Positions 1-20,057 of a stretch of 20,057 bases of DNA are shown here, in pieces; positions within the stretch are counted from its first letter, which is position 1; every line of letters begins with the position of its first letter. The notes beneath the pieces are model-generated. The model searched no databases. It was not told the origin of the DNA and worked only from the letters and a program-made list of their open reading frames with translations. This DNA is from a bacterium. GTDB lineage: Bacteria; JAMCPX01. The stretch lies in NCBI GenBank assembly GCA_021792615.1, contig JAJYUJ010000041.1:1-20057 (forward strand). The letters are read 5' to 3'. Position numbers and translations under genes: made by a program.

Positions 1-963
1 GAGTGCGCACTCGACCGCACCGGCCCCGCCAAGGGAATGCCCGGTCATACCCTTGGTGGAAGAAAGGGGAGGCATATGATCACCGAACACGGCCCTCAGA
101 GCCACGGCCTCCGAAGCATCGTTGTCCCGTGTTGCGGTTCCGTGAAGATTGATATACCCGATATCAGCCGCCTGCATACCGGCATCAGCAATTGCATCCT
201 GCATTGCCTTACGCGCTCCATCACCCGTAGGATGCGGGGCTGTCGGATGATAGGCATCGCAGGAAATGCCGCCGCCCAAGATCCGGGCGATGGCATGCGG
301 CGGAGTATTCTGTGCTGCTTCGAGCAGGAGCATAGCTGCACCTTCACCAAGGGATATTCCAGCCCTGTCCCTGTCAAGGGGGCGTGCACCTTTTGGGTCC
401 AGTAATTGTAGTGAAAAAAAACCGAAATAGGTAAACCTGCACAAGGCATCGACCCCGCCGGCAAGTACCCTTTTTGCCTTTCCGTGCCGGATCAGCTCCA
501 TGGCTATTTTGATCGCTGCCGTTCCACTCGAACACGCTGTCGATAGGGACAATGCGGGCCCGGTGCAGGAGAGGCGGTCTGCCAGATAGGTAGCTACGGT
601 TCCCGCGCCATGGAAGACATATTCCTTTGGAGATACTACCTTTGCCTGGAGCAGGAGCTCGGTTTTCGGCATGCCTCCGGTCGTGACGCCGATGACGATC
701 GCGTCCGGTGCGTAGTCCAGTCCTTCCATTGCATCCCGTGCTGCTGCGAGCGCCATGGCATGGGTGCGGGGAACGCCATCCTCCGCTTCAAATGGGATGT
801 CAAGAGGGGCAACGGGCATAATCTGGTCCGCAGCGTCATCGAAAACCTGTAGAGTACGGATGCCGGAAACGGAATTTTTTAATGAATGTACTGTTGTCTC
901 CCGGCCTCTTCCCAGCGGGCTGAGGATGCCAAGACCTGTGATAAAAATACCTTCCGATGGCAT
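1..963 (-). CDS. Beta-ketoacyl-ACP synthase (KAS II/FabF-like), partial
   Basis: Decarboxylative Claisen condensation enzyme that extends an acyl chain on an ACP. Read from the complement, the frame is open for 321 codons from an ATG at 963 to the window edge, so the C-terminus is missing. The thiolase-fold signatures are visible: nucleophile Cys144 in STACSSGT, His274 in NLHGTATRDND, and Lys304/His309 in STKGMTGHSLGGAG, so the Cys-His-His triad is intact. It starts 10 bases after the stop of the upstream ACP gene and has no strong ribosome site of its own, suggesting translational coupling. The tandem ACPs in front argue for a dedicated pathway (aryl-polyene-, ladderane- or polyketide-like) rather than housekeeping FabF. 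This is inferred from context; the family call is firm, the pathway is not. Confidence 0.93.
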   Translation of the reverse strand, partial: MPSEGIFITGLGILSPLGRGRETTVHSLKNSVSGIRTLQVFDDAADQIMPVAPLDIPFEAEDGVPRTHAMALAAARDAMEGLDYAPDAIVIGVTTGGMPKTELLLQAKVVSPKEYVFHGAGTVATYLADRLSCTGPALSLSTACSSGTAAIKIAMELIRHGKAKRVLAGGVDALCRFTYFGFFSLQLLDPKGARPLDRDRAGISLGEGAAMLLLEAAQNTPPHAIARILGGGISCDAYHPTAPHPTGDGARKAMQDAIADAGMQAADIGYINLHGTATRDNDASEAVALRAVFGDHMPPLSSTKGMTGHSLGGAGAVECAL

Positions 964-973
964 CAGAGGTACA

Positions 974-1279
974 CTATACTAATGTGCTGTTATCGTGTAT
1001 GTAGTGTGCCAGAGAGGCAAACGAAGCGAATACCTTCTCACCTAATTCTTTGTTGTCGATCCTCACTCCATAATCCTTCTCTATGACGGTAACGAGTTCA
1101 AGGATGTCTATGGAATCCATGCCAAGCTCATTGCCTACAAGCGGAGCATTGTTATCTATCGTTTCGGGACGAACATCCTGGATATTAAGGAGGTCAAGAA
1201 CCTTTTTCTTCAGCTCTTCGATTAATTTCTCGACGGGTAATTTCTCAATTTGCAACTTTTCTGTCTGCGTTTCCTGCAT
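974..1279 (-). CDS. Acyl carrier protein (second of tandem pair)
   Basis: Small acidic carrier protein of 101 residues that holds acyl intermediates on a phosphopantetheine arm. The attachment motif is GMDSIDILEL, with Ser56 as the modified residue, followed by the usual helix II. The first 25 residues are a Lys/Glu-rich extension with a repeating E-K-L pattern not found in standard AcpP, which is about 78 residues. Its start lies 35 bases inside the preceding ACP gene in another frame, with an AAGGAG ribosome site about 10 bases upstream, so the two are almost certainly co-translated. It probably serves the ketosynthase encoded next. Whether this ACP carries the starter or the growing chain cannot be told from sequence. 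Confidence 0.93.
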   Translation of the reverse strand: MQETQTEKLQIEKLPVEKLIEELKKKVLDLLNIQDVRPETIDNNAPLVGNELGMDSIDILELVTVIEKDYGVRIDNKELGEKVFASFASLAHYIHDNSTLV

Positions 1280-1550
1280 GTTCCATTTTCTCCTTAATGT
1301 ATTCTGAAATAAGCCGGATATTGGTGAGCTTCGGATAATCGGCTTCTTCTATGTTTATGGCAAATTCACCTTTCAGTACCAGTACGACGGTGATGAGATC
1401 CATGCTGTCTATTCCCAATTCTTCCATGAGATGCATTTCCGTATCCAATGTTTCCGGGGTCACATCTTCGAGTTTGAGTTCATCGATAAATATCTCGGAA
1501 ACCCTTCTCTCGATTTCTTTGACTGTCAGATTTTTGGTATTTGTAATCAT
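1245..1550 (-). CDS. Acyl carrier protein (first of tandem pair)
   Basis: Carrier protein of 101 residues with phosphopantetheine motif EELGIDSMDLITV; Ser49 is the predicted attachment site. It is clearly diverged from the following ACP, so this is not a recent duplication. AGGAGA stands about 6 bases before the ATG. It is the first gene of the leftward cluster ACP-ACP-KAS. Paired ACPs next to a ketosynthase are known from aryl polyene clusters (ApeE/ApeF) and from proposed ladderane clusters of anammox bacteria. Either analogy is inference, because the rest of the cluster lies outside the window. Confidence 0.93.
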   Translation of the reverse strand: MITNTKNLTVKEIERRVSEIFIDELKLEDVTPETLDTEMHLMEELGIDSMDLITVVLVLKGEFAINIEEADYPKLTNIRLISEYIKEKMEHAGNADRKVAN

Positions 1551-1587
1551 AACTATCTCCTCGTGGTTACTAATTTCTTATGAACAG

Positions 1588-1616
1588 TTTTTATTAAAAA
1601 CGCAATGCATTGTCAA
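1588..1616 (-). promoter_or_regulatory. Possible promoter for the ACP-ACP-KAS cluster
   Basis: On the complement, a perfect -35 TTGACA (1616-1611) is followed after 17 bases by TAAAAA (1593-1588), a poor -10. It sits about 40 bases before the first ACP start codon. The consensus -35 and correct spacing are seen directly; promoter activity is inferred. Confidence 0.35.
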
Positions 1617-1796
1617 GTATTGCGGTGTTACCAGACCTGTTTTACCCTGTTAGAAAGCCCCACCATGGATGGTGATGATACTACTAATTCCATAGAGAAA
1701 GAGCGTGGTTTAATGTGGTGATCATTTATGCACGTTTATACTCTAAAAAATCGAAAACTATAAAGCCCTTATATTTAAGCATGTTACAAATAACAG

Positions 1797-1842
1797 ACTA
1801 GCCAGTTGGCTAGTGGACATTTGAGTATGATATCGGTATAAT
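1797..1842 (+). promoter_or_regulatory. Promoter with overlapping inverted-repeat operator
   Basis: A -35 of TGGACA (1814-1819) and a perfect -10 TATAAT (1837-1842) are separated by 17 bases, about 25 bases ahead of the small exported-protein gene at 1867. An inverted repeat with 8-base arms (ACTAGCCA / TGGCTAGT, 2-base loop, 1797-1814) ends on the first base of the -35. Such a position is typical of a repressor or activator operator. The regulator is unknown. The sequence between the ACP promoter and here (about 1620-1796) holds no gene I can support. Confidence 0.5.
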
Positions 1843-1866
1843 GAAATAAAATAGAAACTATTTATA

Positions 1867-2262
1867 ATGAAGAAAAAGATGATAAAGGTTTTATGGGTAT
1901 TTCTCATCTTTGCGCTGACATCGAATACGAAAGGTTTTGCCTCGGCAATAGATCGTTCTCTGTCCATTGCCCCGATCTCCGTTGTTTCATCTGGTTGTGA
2001 CAGCACAGATCTTTATCCCCCGCAATTTTCCGTCATTCCTGCACACGCAGGAATCCAGTCGAATTCCCCTCTAACAAGAGGGGCAGGGTGTGTTTCTTCT
2101 TTTCACCCCACAAAAAAACTATCTACCCCCGGTTCAGCCATAGCAGATACCGGCTCATCTTCTTTGACTTTCAACTGCGTCAGCATTGATTCAATTCAAC
2201 AATCTAAAGTATCTTCAAACGACCTTACCGACATATTTATTCCACCGGAAATTACCGAATAA
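1867..2262 (+). CDS. Small exported protein with repeat-derived insertion, unknown function
   Basis: Open frame of 131 codons. The N-terminus is a convincing signal peptide: MKKKMIK, a hydrophobic run VLWVFLIFAL, then a likely cleavage near GFASA, so the product should be exported. No domain is recognised. The middle (about residues 50-80) is encoded by two palindromic repeats and reads SVIPAHAGIQ, the well-known translation of a dispersed ATTCC...GGAAT repeat, so this part is probably an insertion kept in frame. The C-terminus is Ser/Thr-rich and ends PPEITE. There is a good promoter upstream but no clear ribosome site; a second Met at codon 5 is an alternative start. It could be a decaying gene. 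Confidence 0.45.
   Translation: MKKKMIKVLWVFLIFALTSNTKGFASAIDRSLSIAPISVVSSGCDSTDLYPPQFSVIPAHAGIQSNSPLTRGAGCVSSFHPTKKLSTPGSAIADTGSSSLTFNCVSIDSIQQSKVSSNDLTDIFIPPEITE
2035..2083. repeat. Two tandem palindromic repeat hairpins inside an ORF
   Basis: Hairpin one has perfect 8-base arms ATTCCTGC / GCAGGAAT around ACAC (2035-2054). Hairpin two has perfect 7-base arms CCCCTCT / AGAGGGG around AACA (2066-2083). Both resemble dispersed intergenic repeats that are abundant in several environmental bacterial lineages; the first resembles the neisserial dRS3 type ATTCC-N-GGAAT. Here they lie within the reading frame of the small exported protein. Confidence 0.75.
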
Positions 2263-2277
2263 CAATCTTCATTTATC

Positions 2278-2352
2278 CCCCTCTTAGATTAAAAGGGGTA
2301 GGGGAGTTACAGTTTTCATAACCACACCTGCACCCCTTATCTTAAGAGGAGG
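2278..2352. repeat. C-rich hairpin repeats in inverted orientation
   Basis: A copy beginning CCCCCTCTTA then TAAAAGGGGTAGGGG (2277-2304) is followed by a diverged copy in opposite orientation (CACCCCTTATCTTAAGAGG, about 2331-2349). They belong to the same C-rich family as the second hairpin inside the preceding gene. A short open frame after it (2366-2443, 25 codons, ending KKIERY) is too small and poorly initiated to call a gene. I see nothing else between 2263 and 2454. Confidence 0.6.
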
Positions 2353-2454
2353 TATAAGAAGGAGAATGGGAATTTACCATGGTGAGCGCACTTCAGCGTC
2401 CAAAGAAGCAAAAAAGTTAGGTAAAAAAATAGAGAGATATTAAGGAGAAAAAAA

Positions 2455-3090
2455 ATGAAAAAAACAATTTTAAGTATGGCAGTTGCGATTATTATGATTG
2501 GTCTTACCGTTAGAGCGTATGCGGGTTATTACCAACCTCAGCAACGATACAATCAGCCGGTAAGTCATCGCGGATTATATCTTGGAGGTGGACTTGGTGT
2601 GGACATTCCTACCGGACCAGACCAAAATGGTTATTCAACGGGCTTGGGTTGGTCAATTCGTATCGGGTATCAATTTATTAGAAATCTTGGAATTGAGCTT
2701 GGTTATGATCAAGGGGTGGGAAGTTTTAGTAACCAAGGTGCAACAGGTACATGGAGTTTTTTAGAATTGCCTTATCTTGATTTAAAACCTATTATACCCC
2801 TGTCTTTAAATAGCGATCTCTATTTCCTTGCAGGTGTCTCCTATGCGGATAATAGTATATCATTTTCAAATCCAAACACAACTTTTACATTGGGCCCAGA
2901 TTTTGGATTTGATCTTGGTCTAGGGTATGAATACTATATCACGAATAACTGGTCTCTTGGTGGAGAACTTATCTATCATCACTTGACTTCTACTAGCGTA
3001 TCGTTAAGTCCTGGTGGATCAGTCACACTTCCTTATGCTATGGATGGCAGTGCTACTTCTGTAAATTTTGCGTTCCTATACCATTTTTAA
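2455..3090 (+). CDS. Outer-membrane beta-barrel protein (OmpA/OmpX-like porin-fold)
   Basis: Protein of 211 residues. A signal peptide of about 23 residues ends VRAYA, followed by a mature Gln/Tyr-rich start. The body alternates Gly/aromatic strands typical of an eight-stranded barrel: GLYLGGGLGVD, WSIRIGYQFIRNLGIELGY, LYFLAGVSYAD, FDLGLGYEYYITNNWSLGG. It ends in NFAFLYHF, and the terminal Phe is the usual BAM-recognised C-terminal signature. TAAGGAG lies 8 bases before the ATG. The function is not predictable beyond an outer-membrane location; small barrels of this type serve adhesion, stability or transport. It is followed by a long hairpin. Base composition is more AT-rich than the ACP/KAS genes. 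Confidence 0.85.
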   Translation: MKKTILSMAVAIIMIGLTVRAYAGYYQPQQRYNQPVSHRGLYLGGGLGVDIPTGPDQNGYSTGLGWSIRIGYQFIRNLGIELGYDQGVGSFSNQGATGTWSFLELPYLDLKPIIPLSLNSDLYFLAGVSYADNSISFSNPNTTFTLGPDFGFDLGLGYEYYITNNWSLGGELIYHHLTSTSVSLSPGGSVTLPYAMDGSATSVNFAFLYHF

Positions 3091-3115
3091 TTTAATTTAA
3101 AGCTCGTTGATATTG

Positions 3116-3143
3116 GTAGGGGTTTGATTAATCAAACCCCTAC
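3116..3143 (+). terminator. Perfect 28-base palindrome after the outer-membrane protein gene
   Basis: Arms of 14 bases, GTAGGGGTTTGATT (3116-3129) and its exact complement (3130-3143), with no spacer, 25 bases after the stop codon. There is no T-run after it, so it may act as a transcript-stabilising 3' hairpin or as a symmetrical terminator. Confidence 0.55.
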
Positions 3144-3177
3144 ATAAATATTGATAAAATGAAGGGAAACAGACTAA

Positions 3178-3396
3178 TTGAATGAAGTCGCCGTCGTAAA
3201 GCTTCTGGAGCATGAGGCTGAGGTGACGAGCCATAGGGTGGTCTGGATGGCGGCTTTTCATGGACTTTTGCTAACCGCTCTTGGATTTCTGTGGGACAAG
3301 AAAGATGCAAAATCCGTGATATCCATACTTTGCGCTCTCGGAATAATTGCCTCCATCCTTAGCTCAATCAGCCTTATTATGTCTTCACAGGCTTAA
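3178..3396 (+). CDS. Small two-helix membrane protein, unknown function
   Basis: 72 codons from a TTG start, with GAAGGG about 11 bases upstream. A short charged N-terminus (KLLEHEAEVTSHR) precedes two hydrophobic segments, VVWMAAFHGLLLTALGFLW (about 21-39) and VISILCALGIIASILSSIS (about 47-65), linked by a charged DKKDAK turn. The E-x-E-x-T-S-H-R-x-x-W lead-in followed by a membrane helix is reminiscent of small uncharacterised two-helix proteins found widely in bacteria. No function is known to me. Its stop overlaps the stop of the convergent radical SAM gene by 4 bases. The start is uncertain because no ATG exists in frame before the first helix. Confidence 0.55.
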   Translation: MNEVAVVKLLEHEAEVTSHRVVWMAAFHGLLLTALGFLWDKKDAKSVISILCALGIIASILSSISLIMSSQA

Positions 3397-4637
3397 CGGG
3401 CTATTGAGGATACCGCTTTGTCGCGATGCCTTCCCGTATGGTCATTCCGCTTGTCCCTGTATATCTGCAGAAAGAGCTTGCTCATCTTGACGGATTGAGA
3501 TTCTTCCTTATAGAAATTATCCCATGCGTCATAGTACAGTCTCTGCAGGGTATCCGGTGTCATCTGTTTCGGCTGGAAGACCACGGTAGACGCGTTGTAG
3601 TGGTTCCAATCGGTGTCGAATATCCTTCCTTCCGATTTCATTTGTTCGTAGACCTGAGTACCCGGGAACGGGGTAAGGACCGTAAATTCGGCGAGATCGA
3701 GCTCTACGGTAAGAAGGAAGTCAACGAATCTTTTAATAAAGTCTTCCGTGTGTTCGTCCATACCAAGGAGAATGGTGCCTTCAACGCCGATGCCGTAATC
3801 GTGAAACATCTTTATCCTATCCTTGATCTTGTCCGAAATCGTATAAATGGCATGATAGACATACCAGCAGCCCGCCTTCCGTGCCAGGTTCAAAACCTCG
3901 GGTGTCGGAGAAATGGGGTGCGATACCCAGCGTTTGCCCATGCCTTCCATTGAGCGGAAAACCTCTTTCTCCCACTCCACGTTCTGTTCCAGGGAATTAT
4001 CCACGATGAACAAAAGGTCCGAGCTGCTTTTCATGTCGGAAACAACATGCTCGATGGGGCGCATGCGGTGCGTACGCCCTCCGAGAAACGGCACACAACA
4101 CGGATAGCAATTAAACCTGCATCCACGGGATGTCTGGACAAGGTCGACCAGTTCCCATCCTTTATATACATAGTCTCTTTTTTTATTATACAGGTCCCGC
4201 CTTGGGTTTGGAATTTTCGTAATATCCGGAAAGCCGGCCATGGAATATGATTTTTTGAGACTTCCTTCCTGAAGATCCCGGACAACCTGCGGTAAGATAC
4301 CTTCGGCTTCTCCGATGACAATACTATCAGCGTGCCGGATCGCCTCTTCGGGGCGCAGGGCAACATGCAGCCCGCCTATAATAACCGTTTTGCCGCGCTT
4401 TTTGAATTCCCGGGCTATTTCGTATGCCCGGGGTGCCTGGCAGCTCAACATAATGGATATGCCGATAACATCATAGTCCCCGTCGAAGTTTATGGGCTGA
4501 ACATTTTCGTCGCATATGCTTGCTGCCACGGTATCAGGGAGGCTTGCTGCCACGGTTATAATCCCCAGGGGGGGCAGGGTGAATGGTGTTTGTGACGGTA
4601 ATTTCGGCCACGTCGGGAAGATTAAATGAAATTTCAT
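3393..4637 (-). CDS. Cobalamin-binding radical SAM protein
   Basis: Protein of 414 residues with the class B layout. The N-terminal B12-binding (Rossmann) domain is about residues 1-130, with PPLGIITVAASLPD and DVIGISIMLSCQAPRAYEIA, then IIGGLHVALRPEEA and IVIGEAEG. The radical SAM barrel follows, with the iron-sulfur motif CRFNCYPC (CxxxCxxC) after QTSRG at about residues 170-177. Later motifs VEGTILLGMDEHTEDF and LTPFPGTQVYEQM are typical of this superfamily. Members methylate or rearrange unactivated carbons or phosphorus, or cyclise substrates (BchE, HpnP/HpnR, Fom3); the substrate here is unknown. An extra Cys follows the third cluster Cys. AAGGA lies about 10 bases before the ATG. It could belong to lipid modification, given the ACP/KAS genes nearby, but that is a guess. 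Confidence 0.88.
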   Translation of the reverse strand: MKFHLIFPTWPKLPSQTPFTLPPLGIITVAASLPDTVAASICDENVQPINFDGDYDVIGISIMLSCQAPRAYEIAREFKKRGKTVIIGGLHVALRPEEAIRHADSIVIGEAEGILPQVVRDLQEGSLKKSYSMAGFPDITKIPNPRRDLYNKKRDYVYKGWELVDLVQTSRGCRFNCYPCCVPFLGGRTHRMRPIEHVVSDMKSSSDLLFIVDNSLEQNVEWEKEVFRSMEGMGKRWVSHPISPTPEVLNLARKAGCWYVYHAIYTISDKIKDRIKMFHDYGIGVEGTILLGMDEHTEDFIKRFVDFLLTVELDLAEFTVLTPFPGTQVYEQMKSEGRIFDTDWNHYNASTVVFQPKQMTPDTLQRLYYDAWDNFYKEESQSVKMSKLFLQIYRDKRNDHTGRHRDKAVSSIAR

Positions 4638-4783
4638 ATATGAATGTTCCTTGTAATGTTTTTATTCTTTAAAAGCATAGCTCTCCTATCAAATTAACTT
4701 ACCATGGAAAAATTTGCAAGTAATAATTATTGTCCGCTTCTTGTACCACTTCATACGTATGTGTCAAGTCCCGGAAATGCTTT

Positions 4784-5210
4784 AACCCGGAAAATGCAAT
4801 AAGGAAGTTTACTTATTCGCTCAATCCCGCGATCCACCTGATATTTCTAAGTTTCCTTATAGAAACGAGATTTCAGTCCTCCGTATGTTTACCCCGTTAG
4901 AAACTCAGCAGACGATAATTTGTACAACAATAGATTTAAAATTGAAGAACCACGCCGTAAACGGCATGGATTCTTCGTCGGTATGGAATATATCAATCGA
5001 ATAGTTCGCCTTGACCACGCTATAAATAGCGTGGATTGCGGCGAACACCCGTTCATTAAAAATCTGTATTATTCTAACATTTATAACGGGGTTTATATGC
5101 TATTACCCGGTATGGTTTCCTTGTCGGATTTTCGAAGAATACCTTTGTCTGACGCGGGCTTATCGCTTATTGCATAAACTTCCTTATTATTCAAACGCAT
5201 TTTTCGGGTT
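4784..5210. repeat. Long imperfect inverted-repeat element (~430 bp)
   Basis: The two ends of this gene-free region are diverged reverse complements. AACCCGGAAAATGC (4784-4797) matches the complement of 5197-5210 with one mismatch. AATAAGGAAGTTTA (4798-4811) matches the complement of 5175-5188 exactly. ACCCCGTTA (4891-4899) matches the complement of 5084-5092 exactly. The order and rough spacing are conserved, so the arms extend about 120 bases around a central 180 bases that carry two more hairpins. It looks like a non-autonomous palindromic element (MITE-like) or a remnant. An open frame through it (4920-5177) has a TTG start, no ribosome site and tracks the hairpins, so I do not call it a gene. 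Confidence 0.6.
4944..5046. repeat. Two hairpins of common design within the inverted-repeat element
   Basis: The first hairpin (4944-4976) has arms GAAGAACCACGCCG and CGGCATGGATTCTTC around TAAA, with one bulge. The second (5004-5046) has outer arms GTTCGCC/GGCGAAC and inner arms CCACGCTAT/ATAGCGTGG around AA. Both share the pattern CCACG...AA...GYRTGG-ATT. This resembles the foldback hairpins at ends of IS200/IS605-type elements and REP sequences, but no transposase is present here. Confidence 0.6.
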
Positions 5211-5267
5211 CAGAGAAAATACTTGAAAATCCAAATAATTTATGTTTTACTAATAAAAGAGTACTTT

Positions 5268-5291
5268 AAAAGTGGGTATTAACCCACTTTT
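5268..5291 (+). terminator. Terminator-like hairpin in the rimP-nusA leader
   Basis: Perfect 10-base stem AAAAGTGGGT / ACCCACTTTT with loop ATTA, running into TTATTT, ends 24 bases before the rimP start codon. With no gene directly upstream on this strand, it is either the end of a leader transcript (attenuator) or a terminator isolating the operon. NusA autoregulation at leader terminators is known in other bacteria, which makes the position notable. Confidence 0.7.
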
Positions 5292-5315
5292 TTATTTGTA
5301 AAGCGGAGATTGGTT

Positions 5316-5792
5316 ATGGACAAACATAAGATTATAGCTGAAAAGATTTATGATATAGCCGAGTATAACCTGACGAAAGCAGGTTATGAGGTTATCGATG
5401 TTGAGTACCGGAAGGAAAGAACCGGTAATGTACTCAGAGTGTTTATCGATAAAAAGGATAGGAGCAGGATTAGTGCGCAGGATTGTGAAAAGGCGACTCA
5501 CCTGTTGAGCAGTGCGATAGATACAGATGCGGATATGCCGATTCACTTTTCTTACACGCTGGAAGTGTCGTCCCCGGGACTAACGAGGGAGTTAAAGCGG
5601 AAGGAGGAATACGTGAGGTTCAGCGGAAGGGACATCAGGATTATAACGCGTCAGCCTGTCCTGAACCGGGTTGTTCTCGAAGGTACGCTCAGGGGTATGA
5701 AGGATGAAGATGTATTGATTGATAATGACGGTACCGAGATTATGATACCGTACAGGTTTATAAAGAAGGCAAATTTAACATTTAAAGTATAG
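5316..5792 (+). CDS. rimP: Ribosome maturation factor RimP
   Basis: Cytoplasmic 30S assembly factor of 158 residues. It has the N-terminal alpha/beta domain with GYEVIDVEYRKERTGNVLRV and FIDKK, then DCEKATHLLSSAID, the family signature LEVSSPGLTRELKRKEEYVR, and a C-terminal SH3-like barrel from about residue 85 (GTLRGMKDEDVLIDNDG). I chose the ATG at 5316 because GCGGAG lies 7 bases before it; a TTG two codons earlier is too close to that site. First gene of the translation/RNA operon; nusA follows after 9 bases. Identification is firm from both sequence and synteny. Confidence 0.95.
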   Translation: MDKHKIIAEKIYDIAEYNLTKAGYEVIDVEYRKERTGNVLRVFIDKKDRSRISAQDCEKATHLLSSAIDTDADMPIHFSYTLEVSSPGLTRELKRKEEYVRFSGRDIRIITRQPVLNRVVLEGTLRGMKDEDVLIDNDGTEIMIPYRFIKKANLTFKV

Positions 5793-5801
5793 GGGGATAA
5801 A

Positions 5802-7091
5802 ATGTTTTCCGAACTCACAAAAATTATAGGGCAGCTCGAGCGTGATAAAAGTATAGATAAGGTTATAATACTGAATGCGTTGGAAGCTGCTATGATAAGT
5901 GCAGCCAAGAAAACGATCAAGTATAATGCCGATATAGAGGCCAAGTTCAACGAAGAACTCGGTGAGGTGGAGGTTTTTGAATTCAAAGAGGTCGTTGAAA
6001 CCATAACCAATGCCGACACACAGCTTGACCTGGAGCAGGCAAAGAAAATGGACCCCGACGCCCAGGTGGGAGATAGTGTCGGTATAAAGATAGATACCCA
6101 GAAGTTCGGAAGGATATCCGCTCAAGCCGCTAAACAGGTCATCTTGCAAAGGATGAACGATGCGGAGAAAGAGGTTGTTTATAAGGAGTTCAAAACCAAG
6201 AAAGGCGAGGTTGTTTATGGTGTCATCAGGAGGTTTGAAGGCAGAACAATAGTTATGGATCTCGGTAAAACAGAGGGTGTGCTTCCGCCGACAGAGCAAC
6301 TGCCTAAGGAGAACTTCCGGATAGGAGATAAAATAAGGGTTTATGTGCAGGAAATAAGAATGACAAACAAAGGCCCGAAAATTATCCTTTCCAGAACAAA
6401 CAACCAATTCCTCGTTAAGCTGTTTGCAACGGAGGTCCCGGAAATAGCGGAAGGTATCGTCGAGATAAAGGCCGTTTCAAGAGAACCCGGCAATAAGGCA
6501 AAAATAGCGGTCTTCTCGAAAAACAAGGATGTCGACGCGGTCGGCGCATGTGTCGGTATGAGGGGAGCGCGGGTACAGAACATCGTGCAGGAATTAAGCG
6601 GGGAAAAGATAGATATCATCCCGTGGACAACGGACCATGCGAAATACATCATTTCCGCGCTTGCACCTGCAAAGATAACCGAGGTTTCCGTTGACGAAGA
6701 CGAGCGCTATATAGAAGTTATTGTCCCCGATGACCAGTTATCCCTCGCGATCGGAAGAAAAGGCGTCAATGTGCGGCTCGCAGCGCAGCTTTCCGGCTGG
6801 AAGATCGATATTAAGAGCGAAACCAACATAAAAGAGATAAAAGAAAAGGCCAAAGAAGCGTTTGCCGGATTTAGCTCGATTACGATAAAAACAGCTGAAC
6901 TCCTGTATGGTTATGGCATAAAGTCCATGAAAGAACTTGCCGAAAGCCCGATGGATGTATTGATAAAAATACCGGGTTTTGATGAAAATAATGCAAAACA
7001 ACTGAAAGAATCAGCAATAGAAGAATTGAAAAAAAGGTCTGAGAAAGAGACTTCTGACAAAGGGCCTGAGGCTGCTTCCCAGAGCAATTAA
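5802..7091 (+). CDS. nusA: Transcription termination/antitermination factor NusA
   Basis: RNA polymerase-associated elongation factor of 429 residues. The domains in order are the N-terminal polymerase-binding domain (about 1-130, [19 protein letters not shown]), an S1 domain (about 135-200, [21 protein letters not shown]), then two KH domains (about 200-345, with [19 protein letters not shown] and [19 protein letters not shown]). A C-terminal helix-hairpin-helix region (about 355-415, [15 protein letters not shown] and [12 protein letters not shown]) corresponds to one acidic-repeat-like module. It is shorter than the 495-residue E. coli protein, which has two such repeats. AGGGGG lies 6 bases before the ATG. 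The infB start follows after 24 bases. Confidence 0.96.
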
Positions 7092-7115
7092 AAAGGGCAA
7101 TTGAAAAGGGATACG

Positions 7116-9731
7116 ATGAAAAAAAGGGTACATGAAATAGCAAAAGAGCTTGATCTTTCGTTCAAGGATCTTACAAAAAAATTTGAAGAAATCGGAATCT
7201 CGGTGAAGAGCCATAACAGCTCGGTTGAAGAAAAAGATTTCGAAGCCTTGAAACAATTGCTGAAAAAAGAAAAAGAAAAGACCGAGGTAAAGCCGAAAAC
7301 TATTCTGAGGAAGAAAAAAGAAGCCGTCGTTCCGGAACAGGAAGCACCGGCAGCGGTTCAAACAGGTGCCGACGCAAAACAGCACGTACCCCTGCAGGAA
7401 GATAAAGAAAAAGCAGGAGTGCCGGGCAAGGGAGTTTCTAAAACAGAACATCATGGGGCAGAAGAACCGGCCGATAACCGCTCTGAGGCATCTGTAAAAG
7501 CCGTAAAACATGAAACAGCGGCAGTGCAAAAAGAAACTGTTCGGGAAGCGCAGGTCAGAAAGTCCGCACAGGCGGAGCATAAAGAAATAACACCGGAAGA
7601 CAGGACACAATCCGCACCCTTGCACACAGCAGGCCAGCCGGCGGTAAAGGAACAGCCCCATGCAGGAGAAGCTCAAGTACAGGAAACCGATGAATCTAAA
7701 AAACCGCTCAAACGGCCAGTCGAGATCCTTCCTCCGGAAGAAGGAAAAGGCAAGGGCAAGATCAAATCCGAGAAGGGCGGGGCTTTTATAAAGAAAAAGA
7801 TATTGTCGAGAATAAAAACAGACCTGTCCGAAGAAATCGATCTTTTGCAGGAAAGCAAAGAAGATGAGACGATACTTGAGAACGTTACAACGTATCCCAA
7901 AAAGATACAGCCTCCGCACAAGCAGCAAAAACATGAAAAACCACCTCAGGGGAATGTAAAGACACCGGCAGTCCAGCAAAAGAAAATAGTAAAAATAGAC
8001 GATAAAATGACCGTATCAAAGCTTTCCCAGCTTATGGGGGTGAAGGCATCCGAAATTATTAAAAGGCTTATAGCCCTTGGCGTTATGGCCGGAATCAACG
8101 ATATGATAGATGCGGACACCGCTTCTCTTGTCATAAAAGATATAGGATTTGAGGTAACATTAAAACAGGAAGAATCTCCCGAAGAGACCCTCGATAAAGA
8201 GAAAGATACACCGGAACAACTGAAATCGAGGCCTCCGGTGGTAACGGTTATGGGTCACGTGGATCACGGGAAAACTACACTTCTCGATGCTATACGGGCA
8301 ACAAAGGTGGCAGAAGGCGAGGCTGGAGGCATTACACAGCATATCGGTGCCTATAAGATAGTCATAGACAAAAAGACCGTCGTGTTCCTGGATACACCGG
8401 GTCACGAGGCTTTTACCGCGATGCGTGCAAGAGGTGCCAAGGTAACGGACATCGTCGTACTGGTTGTTGCTGCGGATGACGGAGCCATGCCGCAAACTAT
8501 CGAAGCGATCGATCACGCAAAAGCTGCAGGAGTGCCCATACTGGTTGCAATTAATAAGATAGATAAGCCTGAGGCCCAGCCTCAGCGGGTAATGCAGCAG
8601 CTTTCGGATTACGGGCTTGTGCCCGAGCAATGGGGTGGAAACACCCTGTATGCGATGATTTCTGCGAAGAAGAAAACAGGCATCAATGAGATGCTGGAAC
8701 TTATTCTCTTACAGGCAGAGATGCTCGAACTCAAGGCGAACCCGGACAAGAAGGCAAAAGCGACTATAATAGAGACACGCATGGAAAAAGGATTCGGGGT
8801 CGTTGCCACGGCAATCATCAAGGAAGGTACGCTCAAAAAGGGCGATTATATCGTTTATGGGTCGCATTACAACAGGATAAAAACGCTCCTTGATGATAAC
8901 GGTAATGTGATACTGAGTGCCGGACCGGCGATGCCGGTAGAGATTATCGGTTTTGAATCGCTTCCCGAGGTGGGAGACGTTCTCCTGTCTGTTAATGACG
9001 AAGATATGGCATCCAGCATTGCCGAACACAGGCTCTCGCAACAGCAGGCCTCGGAGCCCGTAAAAAGGAGCAAGGTATCGCTTGAGGATATCTATAAGAA
9101 GATAGAAGAGGGAAGCATTAAAGAATTACCCGTACTGTTAAAGTGCGACGTTATGGGGTCCCTGGGTGCAATACGCGATGCGATAGCGGGGCTTACGGAA
9201 GAAAATGTAAAAGTAAAAATAATCCATGCCGGTATCGGCGGCATCAACGAAAGCGACGTTATGCTTGCTGCGGCTTCGAACGGTATCATCATAGGATTTA
9301 ATGTTCGGCCTGATGCCAAGGCGGTTCAGATAGCAAATACCCAGAACATCGAGATTAAAACGTACAACATAATCTACGAACTTATCGATGACATAAAGAA
9401 GGCCCTTACGGGGTTATTGAAACCCGTTATCAAGGAGAAGAGCCTCGGCAGGGCAAAAGTGCTCGAGGTGTTCAAGATCAGCAAGGTAGGTGCAATTGCA
9501 GGTTCCATGGTGACCGATGGTAAGATCGAGAGAGGGGCACAGGTAAGGGTTGTCCGTGACGGGACCGTTATTTATGAGAGCAGGATCAGTTCTCTAAAAA
9601 GATTCAAAGAAGATGTTAAAGACGTCGATAAAGGTTTTGAGTGCGGTATCGGAATAGAAAAGTTCAACGATTTAAAGAAGAACGACGAACTGGAAGTTTA
9701 TAGAATGGAAAAAGAGGATCACACGAACTGA
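7116..9731 (+). CDS. infB: Translation initiation factor IF-2
   Basis: GTPase that brings initiator tRNA to the 30S subunit; 871 residues from the ATG at 7116, which has AAGGG 5 bases before it. A TTG five codons earlier also follows an AAGGG and is less likely. The first 55 residues form the IF2N subdomain ([18 protein letters not shown]). Then comes a long Lys/Glu/Ala/Pro/Gln-rich linker to about residue 290, and a second IF2N domain ([20 protein letters not shown]). The GTPase starts at about 372 with G1 GHVDHGKTT, switch region [11 protein letters not shown]3 DTPGHEAF, G4 NKID and G5 SAKKKTG. Beta-barrel domains and the C-terminal fMet-tRNA domain follow. All GTPase motifs are intact. The rbfA start follows 3 bases after the stop. 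Confidence 0.97.
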
Positions 9732-17196: not shown

Positions 17197-17613
17197 TTAA
17201 TTCTTATCTTTTTTTCTGCAATCCGAACATATTCCATAGAATTCTATATGATTGCCCATTAAGGTAAATCCCTCCAGAACCTGCTCAGGGACATGAAGCG
17301 AATAGTCAATATCAATATCCATGATCTTTTTACATTTGATGCATACCATGTGGTGATGGGTATGCATATCCGGATCGAACCTCTTTTTATCCGGATCAAT
17401 GGAAAGCTCTTTGACCACCTTATGCTTAACCAGTGTATTCACGACATTGTAAACCGTTGCATACGACATGGAGGGGAAACGCCGGGAAACATGTTTGTAT
17501 ATCTGCTCTACCGAAGGGTGCAACGTGTTTCCTTCAAGATAATCAAGAATTGCCAGCCTCTGCGGGGTCAATTTTATATTAAGCAATTTATATTTTTTTA
17601 TATTCTCTTTCAT
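17197..17613 (-). CDS. perR: Fur-family peroxide-responsive repressor (PerR-like)
   Basis: Metal-dependent DNA-binding repressor of 138 residues. The winged helix includes KLTPQRLAILDYL and SYATVYNVVNTLVKHKVVKEL. The structural zinc site is C91-IK-C94 and C129-SD-C132. The regulatory metal ligands of B. subtilis PerR (His37, Asp85, His91, His93, Asp104) have counterparts at His32, Asp80, His86, His88 and Asp99, supporting PerR over Fur or Zur. Its context with peroxiredoxin and superoxide dismutase agrees. A Per-box-like operator lies 3 bases ahead of the ATG, so it should repress its own operon until peroxide oxidises a metal-ligand His. No ribosome site precedes the ATG. Confidence 0.9.
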   Translation of the reverse strand: MKENIKKYKLLNIKLTPQRLAILDYLEGNTLHPSVEQIYKHVSRRFPSMSYATVYNVVNTLVKHKVVKELSIDPDKKRFDPDMHTHHHMVCIKCKKIMDIDIDYSLHVPEQVLEGFTLMGNHIEFYGICSDCRKKDKN

Positions 17614-17615
17614 AT

Positions 17616-17651
17616 TTATAACAATTATAATGTAATAAATTTTATTGTCAA
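17616..17651 (-). promoter_or_regulatory. Consensus promoter with embedded Per box
   Basis: On the complement, -35 TTGACA (17651-17646), a 16-base spacer and -10 TATAAT (17629-17624) are both perfect. TTATAACAATTATAA at 17616-17630 (plus strand) differs from the Per-box consensus TTATAATNATTATAA at one base and covers the -10 and the expected start of transcription. A bound repressor would block polymerase. The predicted transcript begins only a few bases before the perR ATG. Confidence 0.85.
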
Positions 17652-17725
17652 GTAAAATATTTAATCTGTAAAAAAGTGTGTCTCCTTAAAAATAATATGC
17701 ACGGACTCTTTGTTTTAAAGGAGAA

Positions 17726-18199
17726 ATGATATATACTGCTTTTATGCCAGATACCGATCACACAAAACAAATAACAATAAACAGGATCGCATCGCACAAC
17801 TATGAGCTGTACGACCGCTATGAAGCAGGCCTTGTGCTCAAGGGCTATGAGGTCAAGTCCCTGAGAGCCGGTGCTATGAATATACGGGATAGTTATGTGA
17901 TGGTAAAAAATAATGAGGTTTTTCTGGTCGGTGCGCACATATCGCCGTACAGCCATATGACCTCCGAGCGGTACGATCCGACAAGGACAAGAAAGCTGCT
18001 GCTCAACCGCTCGGAGATAGACAAGTTGACCGGCAAGGTAAAGGAAAAGGGCTTTACTTTAGTGCCAACGCGTGTATATTTTAAAAAAGGACTGGCAAAG
18101 CTGGAATTTGCTATTGCCAAAGGCAGAAAGCTCTTTGATAAACGCGAGCAAATCAAGAAGAAAGACTTGGATAGAGAGCAGAGACGCAGCCTGAAATAG
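17726..18199 (+). CDS. smpB: SsrA-binding protein SmpB
   Basis: OB-fold RNA-binding protein that delivers tmRNA to stalled ribosomes. Signatures: RIASHNYELYDRYEAGLVLKG, GYEVKSLRAGAMNIRDSYV, NNEVFLVGAHISPY, LVPTRVYFKKGLAKLEFAIA and the basic C-terminal tail KLFDKREQIKKKDLDREQRR that enters the mRNA channel. With the first ATG it has 157 residues. A second ATG at 17744 gives 151 residues and a more typical N-terminus (MPDTDHTKQITINR). AAAGGAG is too near the first and rather far from the second, so the start is uncertain. The tmRNA gene follows 54 bases later, a functionally matched pair. Divergent from perR. Confidence 0.96.
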   Translation: MIYTAFMPDTDHTKQITINRIASHNYELYDRYEAGLVLKGYEVKSLRAGAMNIRDSYVMVKNNEVFLVGAHISPYSHMTSERYDPTRTRKLLLNRSEIDKLTGKVKEKGFTLVPTRVYFKKGLAKLEFAIAKGRKLFDKREQIKKKDLDREQRRSLK

Positions 18200-18253
18200 G
18201 ATGGCGTCAATGCGAACACAATGAAGAATCTTGGAGTAAAACAATTAGCCAAT

Positions 18254-18600
18254 GGGGGCGAAGGGTTTCGACACGGCTAAGATAACCTTTTGGTGCATGT
18301 CGAGGTCCCATCTACTCGTTAAAAGGATGGAAAAAACTAGTCGCAAACGACTACGCACTCGCTGCTTAATTAAAAGCAGCTGAGTTGAAACGGTCACCTT
18401 GCGGGCTGTCTCAACGATAAACTTTTCAGCAAGGCGATTTCGGGGATTTGTTCCGTTTAACCCAAGGTCGCACCCCAAACGGAATAGTTGTCAGAATCCT
18501 GCCGGTGGGATGAAGACAGCGAACCTTTAAACACAGGATAAACATGTAGTGCCAGAGGTGAAAATGGTTGTGGACGCGGGTTCAACTCCCGCCGCCTCCA
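18254..18600 (+). ncRNA. ssrA: Transfer-messenger RNA (tmRNA), tag ANDYALAA
   Basis: One-piece tmRNA of about 347 nt. The 5' end GGGGGCGAAGGGTTTCGAC pairs with the 3' end CGCCTCC as the acceptor stem, and GCGGGTTCAACTCCCGC forms the T-arm. The tag reading frame follows CTAGTC with resume codon GCA at 18343: Ala-Asn-Asp-Tyr-Ala-Leu-Ala-Ala, then TAA (18367-18369). It ends in the usual ALAA degradation signal and is two residues shorter than the E. coli tag. After the discriminator A at 18600 comes TTC, so CCA is not encoded and must be added. smpB lies just upstream. Confidence 0.96.
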
Positions 18601-18605
18601 TTCTT
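18570..18605 (+). other. Probable attachment site of the ssrA-integrated element
   Basis: The 3' end of tmRNA (T-arm and acceptor strand) is a common target of tyrosine integrases. The integrase gene ends 44 bases beyond it and is oriented toward it. The exact core cannot be set because the second copy would lie to the right of this window. Bases 18606-18644 hold nothing else recognisable. Confidence 0.5.
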
Positions 18606-18644
18606 TTTGCATCTAAAACCTTTTGTTTTCTAAGACCTTAACAG

Positions 18645-19703
18645 TCATAGCCCGTTTTGATCTACCTGACTGTGATCTTTTTTGTGATCACCCTGCTGAT
18701 CAAGAACTGCAACAACGCTTTTAAGGTTATCAGGGCTTAAGTGGCTGTACCTCATCGCCATGCTGGGTGTCGAATGTCCCAAGAGCATTTGAACCTGATA
18801 TAAGCTTATGCCGGACTGAACTAATTTTGAAGCGACCGTGTGCCTTAGAGTGTGAAATGTACAGTCCTCAACATTTGCCCTTCTGCACGCTCTGTCAAAG
18901 GCGTGCCGTAGTGTACTTGCACTTAGCCTTTCACCATTACCGTTGTGGAACACAAAATCGCAATTGATGTGTCTGACCTTGTTCAATCCTAACAGCAATT
19001 CCCTGACAGCATTATTCATAGGTAGCCCAAGCATCCTTTTGGTTTTGGTGACCTGAAGCGTGATGACATCCCTTTTAAGGTCTATGTCTTGCCATCGCAA
19101 ATCCAAGACATCGCTTTCTCTTAATCCGGTGCTCAATGTTAGCTTGATGATGGGTTTCAACCAGTCGTCTGATGCTTCATATAGCCTTTTGATTTCATCA
19201 TCGGTAAACCATCGGGTTCTTGCTGGTGGTAGCTTTTCCATTGGTATTCTTACAAAGGGATTATCCCGTGTCCATTCAAGCTGTTTGATTCCAATGTTGA
19301 AAATATGTTTACCAAGACCAAGCTCAAGGTTTATCGTTTTAGGTGCTGCACCCTGATGCCTACGCTCTAACTTGTAGGCCGTTATTCTGGCAGGTGTGAC
19401 GTTCTTTAGGAGCAAATTCCCGAACGCCGGTAACAAGTGCCCTAAAAGTTGCTTATCCCGCCTTATACTCGATTGTGTCTTTGCACTTGTAAACTCTTGC
19501 ATAAACTTTTCCGCCATCTCTTGGAACAGCTTTTTACCATCTTGCCCCTTATCAAAATACGTGCCTTCTACCAGTTCCGTTATTATCTTCGCTTCGATCT
19601 CTCCAGCGAGCTTTTTATTCTGTGTCTTCGTTGCTACCCTGATCAATCTGCCGTCATGCCTTAGCTGAACCATCCACCTTAAACCTCTTCGTATTAACGT
19701 CAT
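18645..19703 (-). CDS. int: Site-specific tyrosine recombinase (phage/island integrase)
   Basis: Integrase of 352 residues that would insert and excise the linked element at ssrA. I chose the ATG at 19703 because GGGGAGG lies 5 bases before it; the frame extends 17 codons further without a ribosome site. The N-terminal part (about 1-55) is a short arm-type DNA-binding region. The core-binding SAM-like domain spans about 58-145 and the catalytic domain about 165-330. Catalytic residues are present: Arg195 (TGLRESDVLDLRW), Lys220 or 223, His284-x-x-Arg287 (HTLRH), His310 (LLGHS) and nucleophile Tyr319 (MRYSHLS). All residues intact, so probably active. Transcribed toward ssrA. Confidence 0.95.
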   Translation of the reverse strand: MTLIRRGLRWMVQLRHDGRLIRVATKTQNKKLAGEIEAKIITELVEGTYFDKGQDGKKLFQEMAEKFMQEFTSAKTQSSIRRDKQLLGHLLPAFGNLLLKNVTPARITAYKLERRHQGAAPKTINLELGLGKHIFNIGIKQLEWTRDNPFVRIPMEKLPPARTRWFTDDEIKRLYEASDDWLKPIIKLTLSTGLRESDVLDLRWQDIDLKRDVITLQVTKTKRMLGLPMNNAVRELLLGLNKVRHINCDFVFHNGNGERLSASTLRHAFDRACRRANVEDCTFHTLRHTVASKLVQSGISLYQVQMLLGHSTPSMAMRYSHLSPDNLKSVVAVLDQQGDHKKDHSQVDQNGL

Positions 19704-19705
19704 AT

Positions 19706-20017
19706 TCACCTCCCCTGTGAAAAGGTTTTGAAAGTGTCGGTTAATTCCGTGCATGAATAGTCTACATCACACATGCAGGAATTACAACTGCTATTCCTTA
19801 TTATTGAGCTACATGGTTTAATACGGTTTAATGTGTGTTTTGATTCAGTAAGCAAAACATCGTAAACATATTGTTTAAAAGCTTCAAAAGCCTTTCCGGC
19901 GCTCGGCTGGTAGACTGATATGAATAGCGGGAAGATCGTCGTTTCTATGTGCCTATGCGTAAGAAAATAGCATATATAAAGGCATGTATTTAAGTAGTCT
20001 GTGATTGGTTTATTCAT
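19706..20017 (-). CDS. Hypothetical protein upstream of the integrase
   Basis: An open frame whose stop (TGA, 19708-19706) lies within the spacing between the integrase ribosome site and start. From the Met at 20017 it has 103 residues (MNKPITDYLNTCLYIC...); a further Met 12 codons upstream is possible. No domain is recognised. There is a hydrophobic stretch IETTIFPLFISVY, a helical-looking AGKAFEAFKQYVYDVLLTE and a Cys-rich C-terminal part (SSCNSCMCDVDYSC). A weak AGGGG precedes the start at long spacing. Position suggests an element-encoded gene co-transcribed with the integrase, but it may be non-coding. Confidence 0.3.
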   Translation of the reverse strand: MNKPITDYLNTCLYICYFLTHRHIETTIFPLFISVYQPSAGKAFEAFKQYVYDVLLTESKHTLNRIKPCSSIIRNSSCNSCMCDVDYSCTELTDTFKTFSQGR

Positions 20018-20057
20018 GTTAGAATTTAACCCCTGATAAGAATTGCCGTGCATCCGG

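Follow-up and report, generated by a model that had tools for sequence, protein, structure and literature searches.

The stretch of DNA analysed here (the window, 20,057 nucleotides) is the entire contig C74 of genome G000, a 2.54-Mb assembly in 77 contigs. Toward its right end the tmRNA gene (ssrA) is followed by a gene for a 369-aa tyrosine integrase (Int) and by the end of a second tyrosine recombinase gene (rec2), in which the contig stops (Table 1). The tmRNA gene is the target of the island that begins here, and its 3' end is intact at the junction. Exactly 44 bases separate this 3' end from int, and the C-terminus of Int points toward the tmRNA. The original prediction had described an intact tyrosine recombinase facing ssrA at this distance, and ARAGORN, Rfam, PF00589 and the PHROG profile all confirmed it. 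The catalytic residues, which had been called complete, were R212, K237, H301, R304, H327 and Y336, and all six were invariant among ten family members. The nearest solved structures to Int were XerA/XerD-like recombinases. A 115-aa ORF, upstream of int and overlapping it, may not be a gene. The window ends about 1.4 kb into the island, as predicted, because contig C74 stops there.

Further left in the window (4782-4891 and 5091-5167) we observed an interspersed, MITE-like repeat that starts near ACCCGAAAAATGCAATA. Non-coding regions on several contigs, and in several genera, contained copies that were 81-92% identical, among them C54:32419-32600, C53 and G007:C18.

Table 1. Positions of the features in the window and in the allelic contig C68 (L067)
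Feature	Position	Strand	Evidence or remark
fur (part)-smpB-ssrA stretch	17241..18606		about 94% identical to G008:C118 (L068, another genus); about 71% left of the stretch
smpB	17726..18199	+	host gene left of the island
tmRNA gene (ssrA)	18254..18600	+	tag ANDYALAA; ARAGORN; Rfam RF00023, 170.6 bits, E 3e-68
attL core, 31 bp	18576..18606	+	tmRNA T-arm, acceptor stem and TTCTTT; identical attR at L067:9088-9118
Island, left 1.46 kb visible in the window	18601..20057		full island about 8.4 kb, L067:664-9118
int, tyrosine integrase	18645..19754	-	PF00589 E 4e-39; PHROG integrase E 2e-71
Paired heptamer TGTGATC-N5-TGTGATC, putative binding site	18671..18689	+	in 3' coding end of int; family form TGTGATC-N3-TTTGTGATC
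115-aa ORF	19706..20053	-	counterpart ORF in the C31 and G007:C34 elements
rec2, last 39 nt	20019..20057	-	196-aa, catalytic domain only; complete at L067:2107-2697
att core, left copy	L067:664-694
int in C68	L067:733-1842	-
rec2, second tyrosine recombinase	L067:2107-2697	-	catalytic domain only; Phage_integrase
TubC_N-domain ORF	L067:3060-3503	-
AAA_25/RepA-like ATPase	L067:3500-4717	-	weakly like RSF1010 RepA (PDB 1g8y, E 2e-5)
Excisionase-like HTH gene	L067:4963-5184	-	HTH_17
365-aa ORF	L067:5334-6431	+	no assigned product
Winged-helix ORF	L067:6471-6698	-
A+T-rich non-coding stretch	about L067:6740-7500		degenerate ACCGGT-type and AATCGATTT repeats
GT87 glycosyltransferase	L067:7592-8905	+
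Paired heptamer, second occurrence	L067:8940-8958		near the right end
att core, right copy (attR)	L067:9088-9118		31/31 bp identical to window 18576-18606

The complete island in an allelic contig

A search for matching contigs, covering 60 related genomes, found C68, a contig of 10,580 bases in bin G007 (same family, another genus) that runs through the whole island. Window positions 17913-20057 were 99.07% identical to C68, with 20 differences in 2,145 bases and none in the att core. The second copy of the tmRNA 3' end that was to be sought on the right is present there, and it forms with the left copy a perfect direct repeat, 8,424 bp apart. Chance falls far short of explaining an exact 31-bp repeat inside about 10 kb. 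Instead of core genes continuing directly after the integrase, the repeat closes an 8.4-kb insertion of lower G+C (31-43% over most of the island against 44-54% in the flanks), after which a host FMN oxidoreductase gene follows. In G006, G008 and G007:C18, ssrA has no neighbouring copy of this integrase, and the match of the right flanks to the sequence after the C68 attR extends over no more than 42-67 bp, of which the core is part (82% over 67 bp, core included, in G008; 89% over 54 bp in G007:C18). In the congener G002 an ERCC4-domain nuclease gene (C119, L069, 1027-2118) was observed directly after ssrA, where G000 has the island.

The true owner of C68 is uncertain, because bin G007 has a separate tmRNA gene of its own on C18, which is 83% identical. 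The right end of C68 shares an exact 127-mer with G007:C35, a contig that carries apparently the only full-length clpB-like gene of the bin. C68 either was mis-binned and belongs to a strain of the window's species, or is DNA that was transferred, and in both cases it is allelic with the window. The part of the island beyond position 20057 (RepA and right end) was absent from the G000 assembly at the expected 99% identity; with the right half of its own copy thus missing from the assembly, the cargo is known only from C68. With this source for the cargo, the prediction of an ssrA-integrated island starting at the right of the window largely holds.

Two other G000 contigs were considered for the far side of the island. 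C66, proposed as the right flank by synteny with G002, was rejected since its left end has rnpA-like sequence. C54 carries a tmRNA-type attR (32366-32394, L003; 29 bp, 93%) beside core genes and far from ssrA in the assembly. It is preceded by about 40 bp of the right-end sequence of the element family and then by host genes, read by eye as a prolyl-tRNA synthetase-like ORF and an EF-P-like ORF. With host genes right behind these 40 bp, and not 32 kb of cargo, the C54 site was rejected as the far end of the window's island and taken as a relic, which our best explanation does not place.

The locus had also been singled out as the likeliest place for undescribed accessory systems, and this was borne out weakly. 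The visible cargo of C68 consists of the GT87 glycosyltransferase and the 365-aa ORF, and no convincing PADLOC match was found among the C68 proteins scanned. The single match was weak (E 1e-3, to the RepA-like ATPase), and a defence-system assignment for the cargo was dropped on that account. A sibling island carries restriction-modification genes. The predicted structure of the 365-aa ORF was uninformative (mean pLDDT 39). The repeats in the A+T-rich stretch are possibly the origin iterons of the element.

Shared ends and different RNA targets in the element family

Relatives of Int were found in G000, G001, G005 and G007, and each points toward the 3' end of a tRNA or tmRNA gene. The targets were tRNA-Met (C31; G007:C34), tRNA-Cys (C48; G007:C61) and tRNA-Thr (C4), with tRNA-Phe, tRNA-Leu and tRNA-Arg in relatives of G000, and a decayed sibling lacking int lies at tRNA-Lys (C53). 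For elements with both ends known the att repeats measured 30-52 bp: 30 bp at tRNA-Lys, 31 bp at the tmRNA, 43 bp (C31/C49) and 52 bp (G007:C34) at tRNA-Met, and 44 bp at tRNA-Cys (C48/C23). The place following int is taken by a second tyrosine recombinase in some elements and by a serine recombinase in others. Cargo differs within the family, with GT87 in C68 and BglII-type restriction-modification in the complete tRNA-Met sibling of G007:C34 (L115, about 172-7400), which encodes a BglII-like restriction endonuclease and a DNA methyltransferase.

The ends are shared. The family form of the paired heptamer occurs six times in the 2.54 Mb of G000, every time at an element end, and the reversed control pattern was not found. 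A near-identical motif was present in 7 of the 12 related genomes searched, where several copies adjoin tRNA 3' ends. The heptamer pair is a putative arm-type site that Int or an excisionase would bind. Two right ends bearing the motif run into copies of the 3' ends of tRNA-Cys (C23) and tRNA-Met (C49). These match the integrase targets of C48 and C31, and the elements thus seem to be divided between contigs. On C49 (L113, about 7380-7540) a second left-end-like sequence (TGTGATCCCCTATTGTGATCACC) was observed to the right of the tRNA-Met attR, which suggests two elements in tandem at this tRNA.

A maximum-likelihood tree placed the tmRNA integrase, on a long branch of 0.97, next to the tRNA-Met integrase of C31 as its sister (support 90/96); this suggests retargeting. 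With domain borders taken from general knowledge of such integrases, the two proteins were 68% identical over the N-terminal 75 residues and 42% identical over the catalytic part, whereas the catalytic part of the C31 protein was 64-67% identical to two other family members compared. This pattern fits an arm-binding domain that was retained and a catalytic domain that changed after the move to the tmRNA.

The family is real and of a well-known kind. In the TIGER/Islander survey, about one island in three (33.8%) lies in a tRNA or tmRNA gene, and sizes peak near 10 kb (PMC12424338). The island described here resembles them in its insertion at the 3' end, the tyrosine integrase adjoining the RNA gene, the restoration of that gene, the attL/attR repeat and a size near that peak (PMC12424338), but in the present family the end sequences and a paired heptamer are conserved among siblings with at least seven different RNA targets. 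The Dehalococcoides ssrA islands (vcr-GI) have the same target, a direct repeat of the tmRNA 3' end (20 bp in vcr-GI) and, beside attL, a reverse-strand integration module of several genes that includes a second, smaller recombinase; however, they use the CcrB-like serine recombinase DsiB (PMC3146451), in contrast to the PF00589 tyrosine recombinase found here. The nearest named relatives of Int, at about 39% identity, were integrases at tRNA-Lys in Nitrospira (for example FP929003, L131). These also face the tRNA 3' end, but their target is another one, and by tblastn their elements have no accessory genes in common with ours save weak HTH and recombinase matches. In the literature searched we found neither a family name for elements like the tmRNA island nor a published description of the family, which is weak evidence of novelty; the family is apparently undescribed.

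Nature and probable working of the element

The right end of the window is, with high probability, the left end of an integrative element of about 8.4 kb, neither conjugative nor phage, that occupies the 3' end of ssrA and belongs to a target-switching family of elements within the host's bacterial family. The same junction could mark the left edge of an integrated prophage or phage satellite, as ssrA is a common prophage site and Int matches the PHROG integrase profile. However, across the complete C68 element PHROGs and Pfam gave no match to a terminase, capsid, portal or tail gene or to any other phage structural, packaging or capsid-remodelling gene. When viral and GTDB contigs were scanned with single proteins, no close relatives of Int, RepA or the 365-aa ORF were returned, and the alignment search gave 34% identity at best, so we consider a phage origin very unlikely. 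Transfer functions of its own, as in an integrative conjugative or mobilizable element, are the least probable description. Many tRNA/tmRNA islands are ICEs or IMEs, yet neither relaxase, coupling protein, T4SS nor mobilization genes were found by Pfam in the complete C68 element, the genes of siblings being scanned in part. ICEs by gene content account for 7.0% of all islands in the TIGER/Islander survey (PMC12424338).

The integrase at ssrA might instead be an orphan, left behind after the island was deleted from the window's own genome. The missing 99% match to C68 beyond position 20057 would agree with such a dead relic, as would the degraded sibling at tRNA-Lys and the 20-bp attR-like relic on C54. 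Against this, int is intact and 98% identical to that of C68, and the window runs into rec2 to its very last base at 99% identity. Contig ends inside such elements are moreover the rule in this assembly (C4, C23, C48 and C49), which points to assembly breaks. Deletion of the island is thus unlikely, and we retain the reading of an integrative element with an intact integrase.

From the att repeats, the integrase, the gene content and the conserved ends we infer how this element would work. Int would recombine the 31-bp core carried by the circular form (attP) with its identical counterpart in the T-arm and acceptor stem of the tmRNA gene (attB). Insertion would rebuild the tmRNA at attL and leave the 31-bp remnant as attR, as the repeat structure supports. 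During integration and excision, Int or the HTH_17 excisionase-like protein is probably guided into place by the TGTGATC pairs that lie near both ends. The RepA-like ATPase probably supports replication or maintenance of the excised circle, and resolution of multimers is probably the task of the second recombinase. Transfer from cell to cell is presumably passive or helper-dependent. Members sharing ends and gene layout would have switched among tRNA genes and the tmRNA gene, with the tmRNA integrase arising near the tRNA-Met integrase.

The fur-smpB-ssrA segment in another genus

Compared with G008:C118, the window was mostly 62-80% identical left of about position 17240 and mostly 85-100% identical from there to the att core. 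Identity between G008 and its congener G006 changed over this segment from mostly 75-92% to mostly 58-85%, outside the conserved tmRNA, whereas the window showed no drop against its own congener G002. Since G008 falls in its comparison and the window does not, G008 is the likely recipient. An identity of 94% rather than 99% makes it less likely that the window's species was a simple contaminant, and an assembly chimera is possible. The segment has its right boundary at the att core; as no other stretch is more conserved, ordinary homologous recombination suffices as an explanation. It is doubtful that the ssrA element helps to move trans-translation genes between genera. By this proposal the fur-smpB-ssrA segment of the window's lineage replaced that of G008, with breakpoints in fur and at or next to the att core, and a third genus may have acquired the segment still joined to the element (G007:C68). 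A possible route combines homologous recombination at the left breakpoint with Int acting on the att core at the right one. If the exchange of smpB-ssrA survives a check for assembly errors, it would be a concrete case of the neighbourhood of an island travelling between genera.

The comparison bears out the island call made by eye and supplies the whole island. The family offers a natural series for how tyrosine integrases change their target, in which the target changes among tRNA genes and the tmRNA gene but the ends remain the same.
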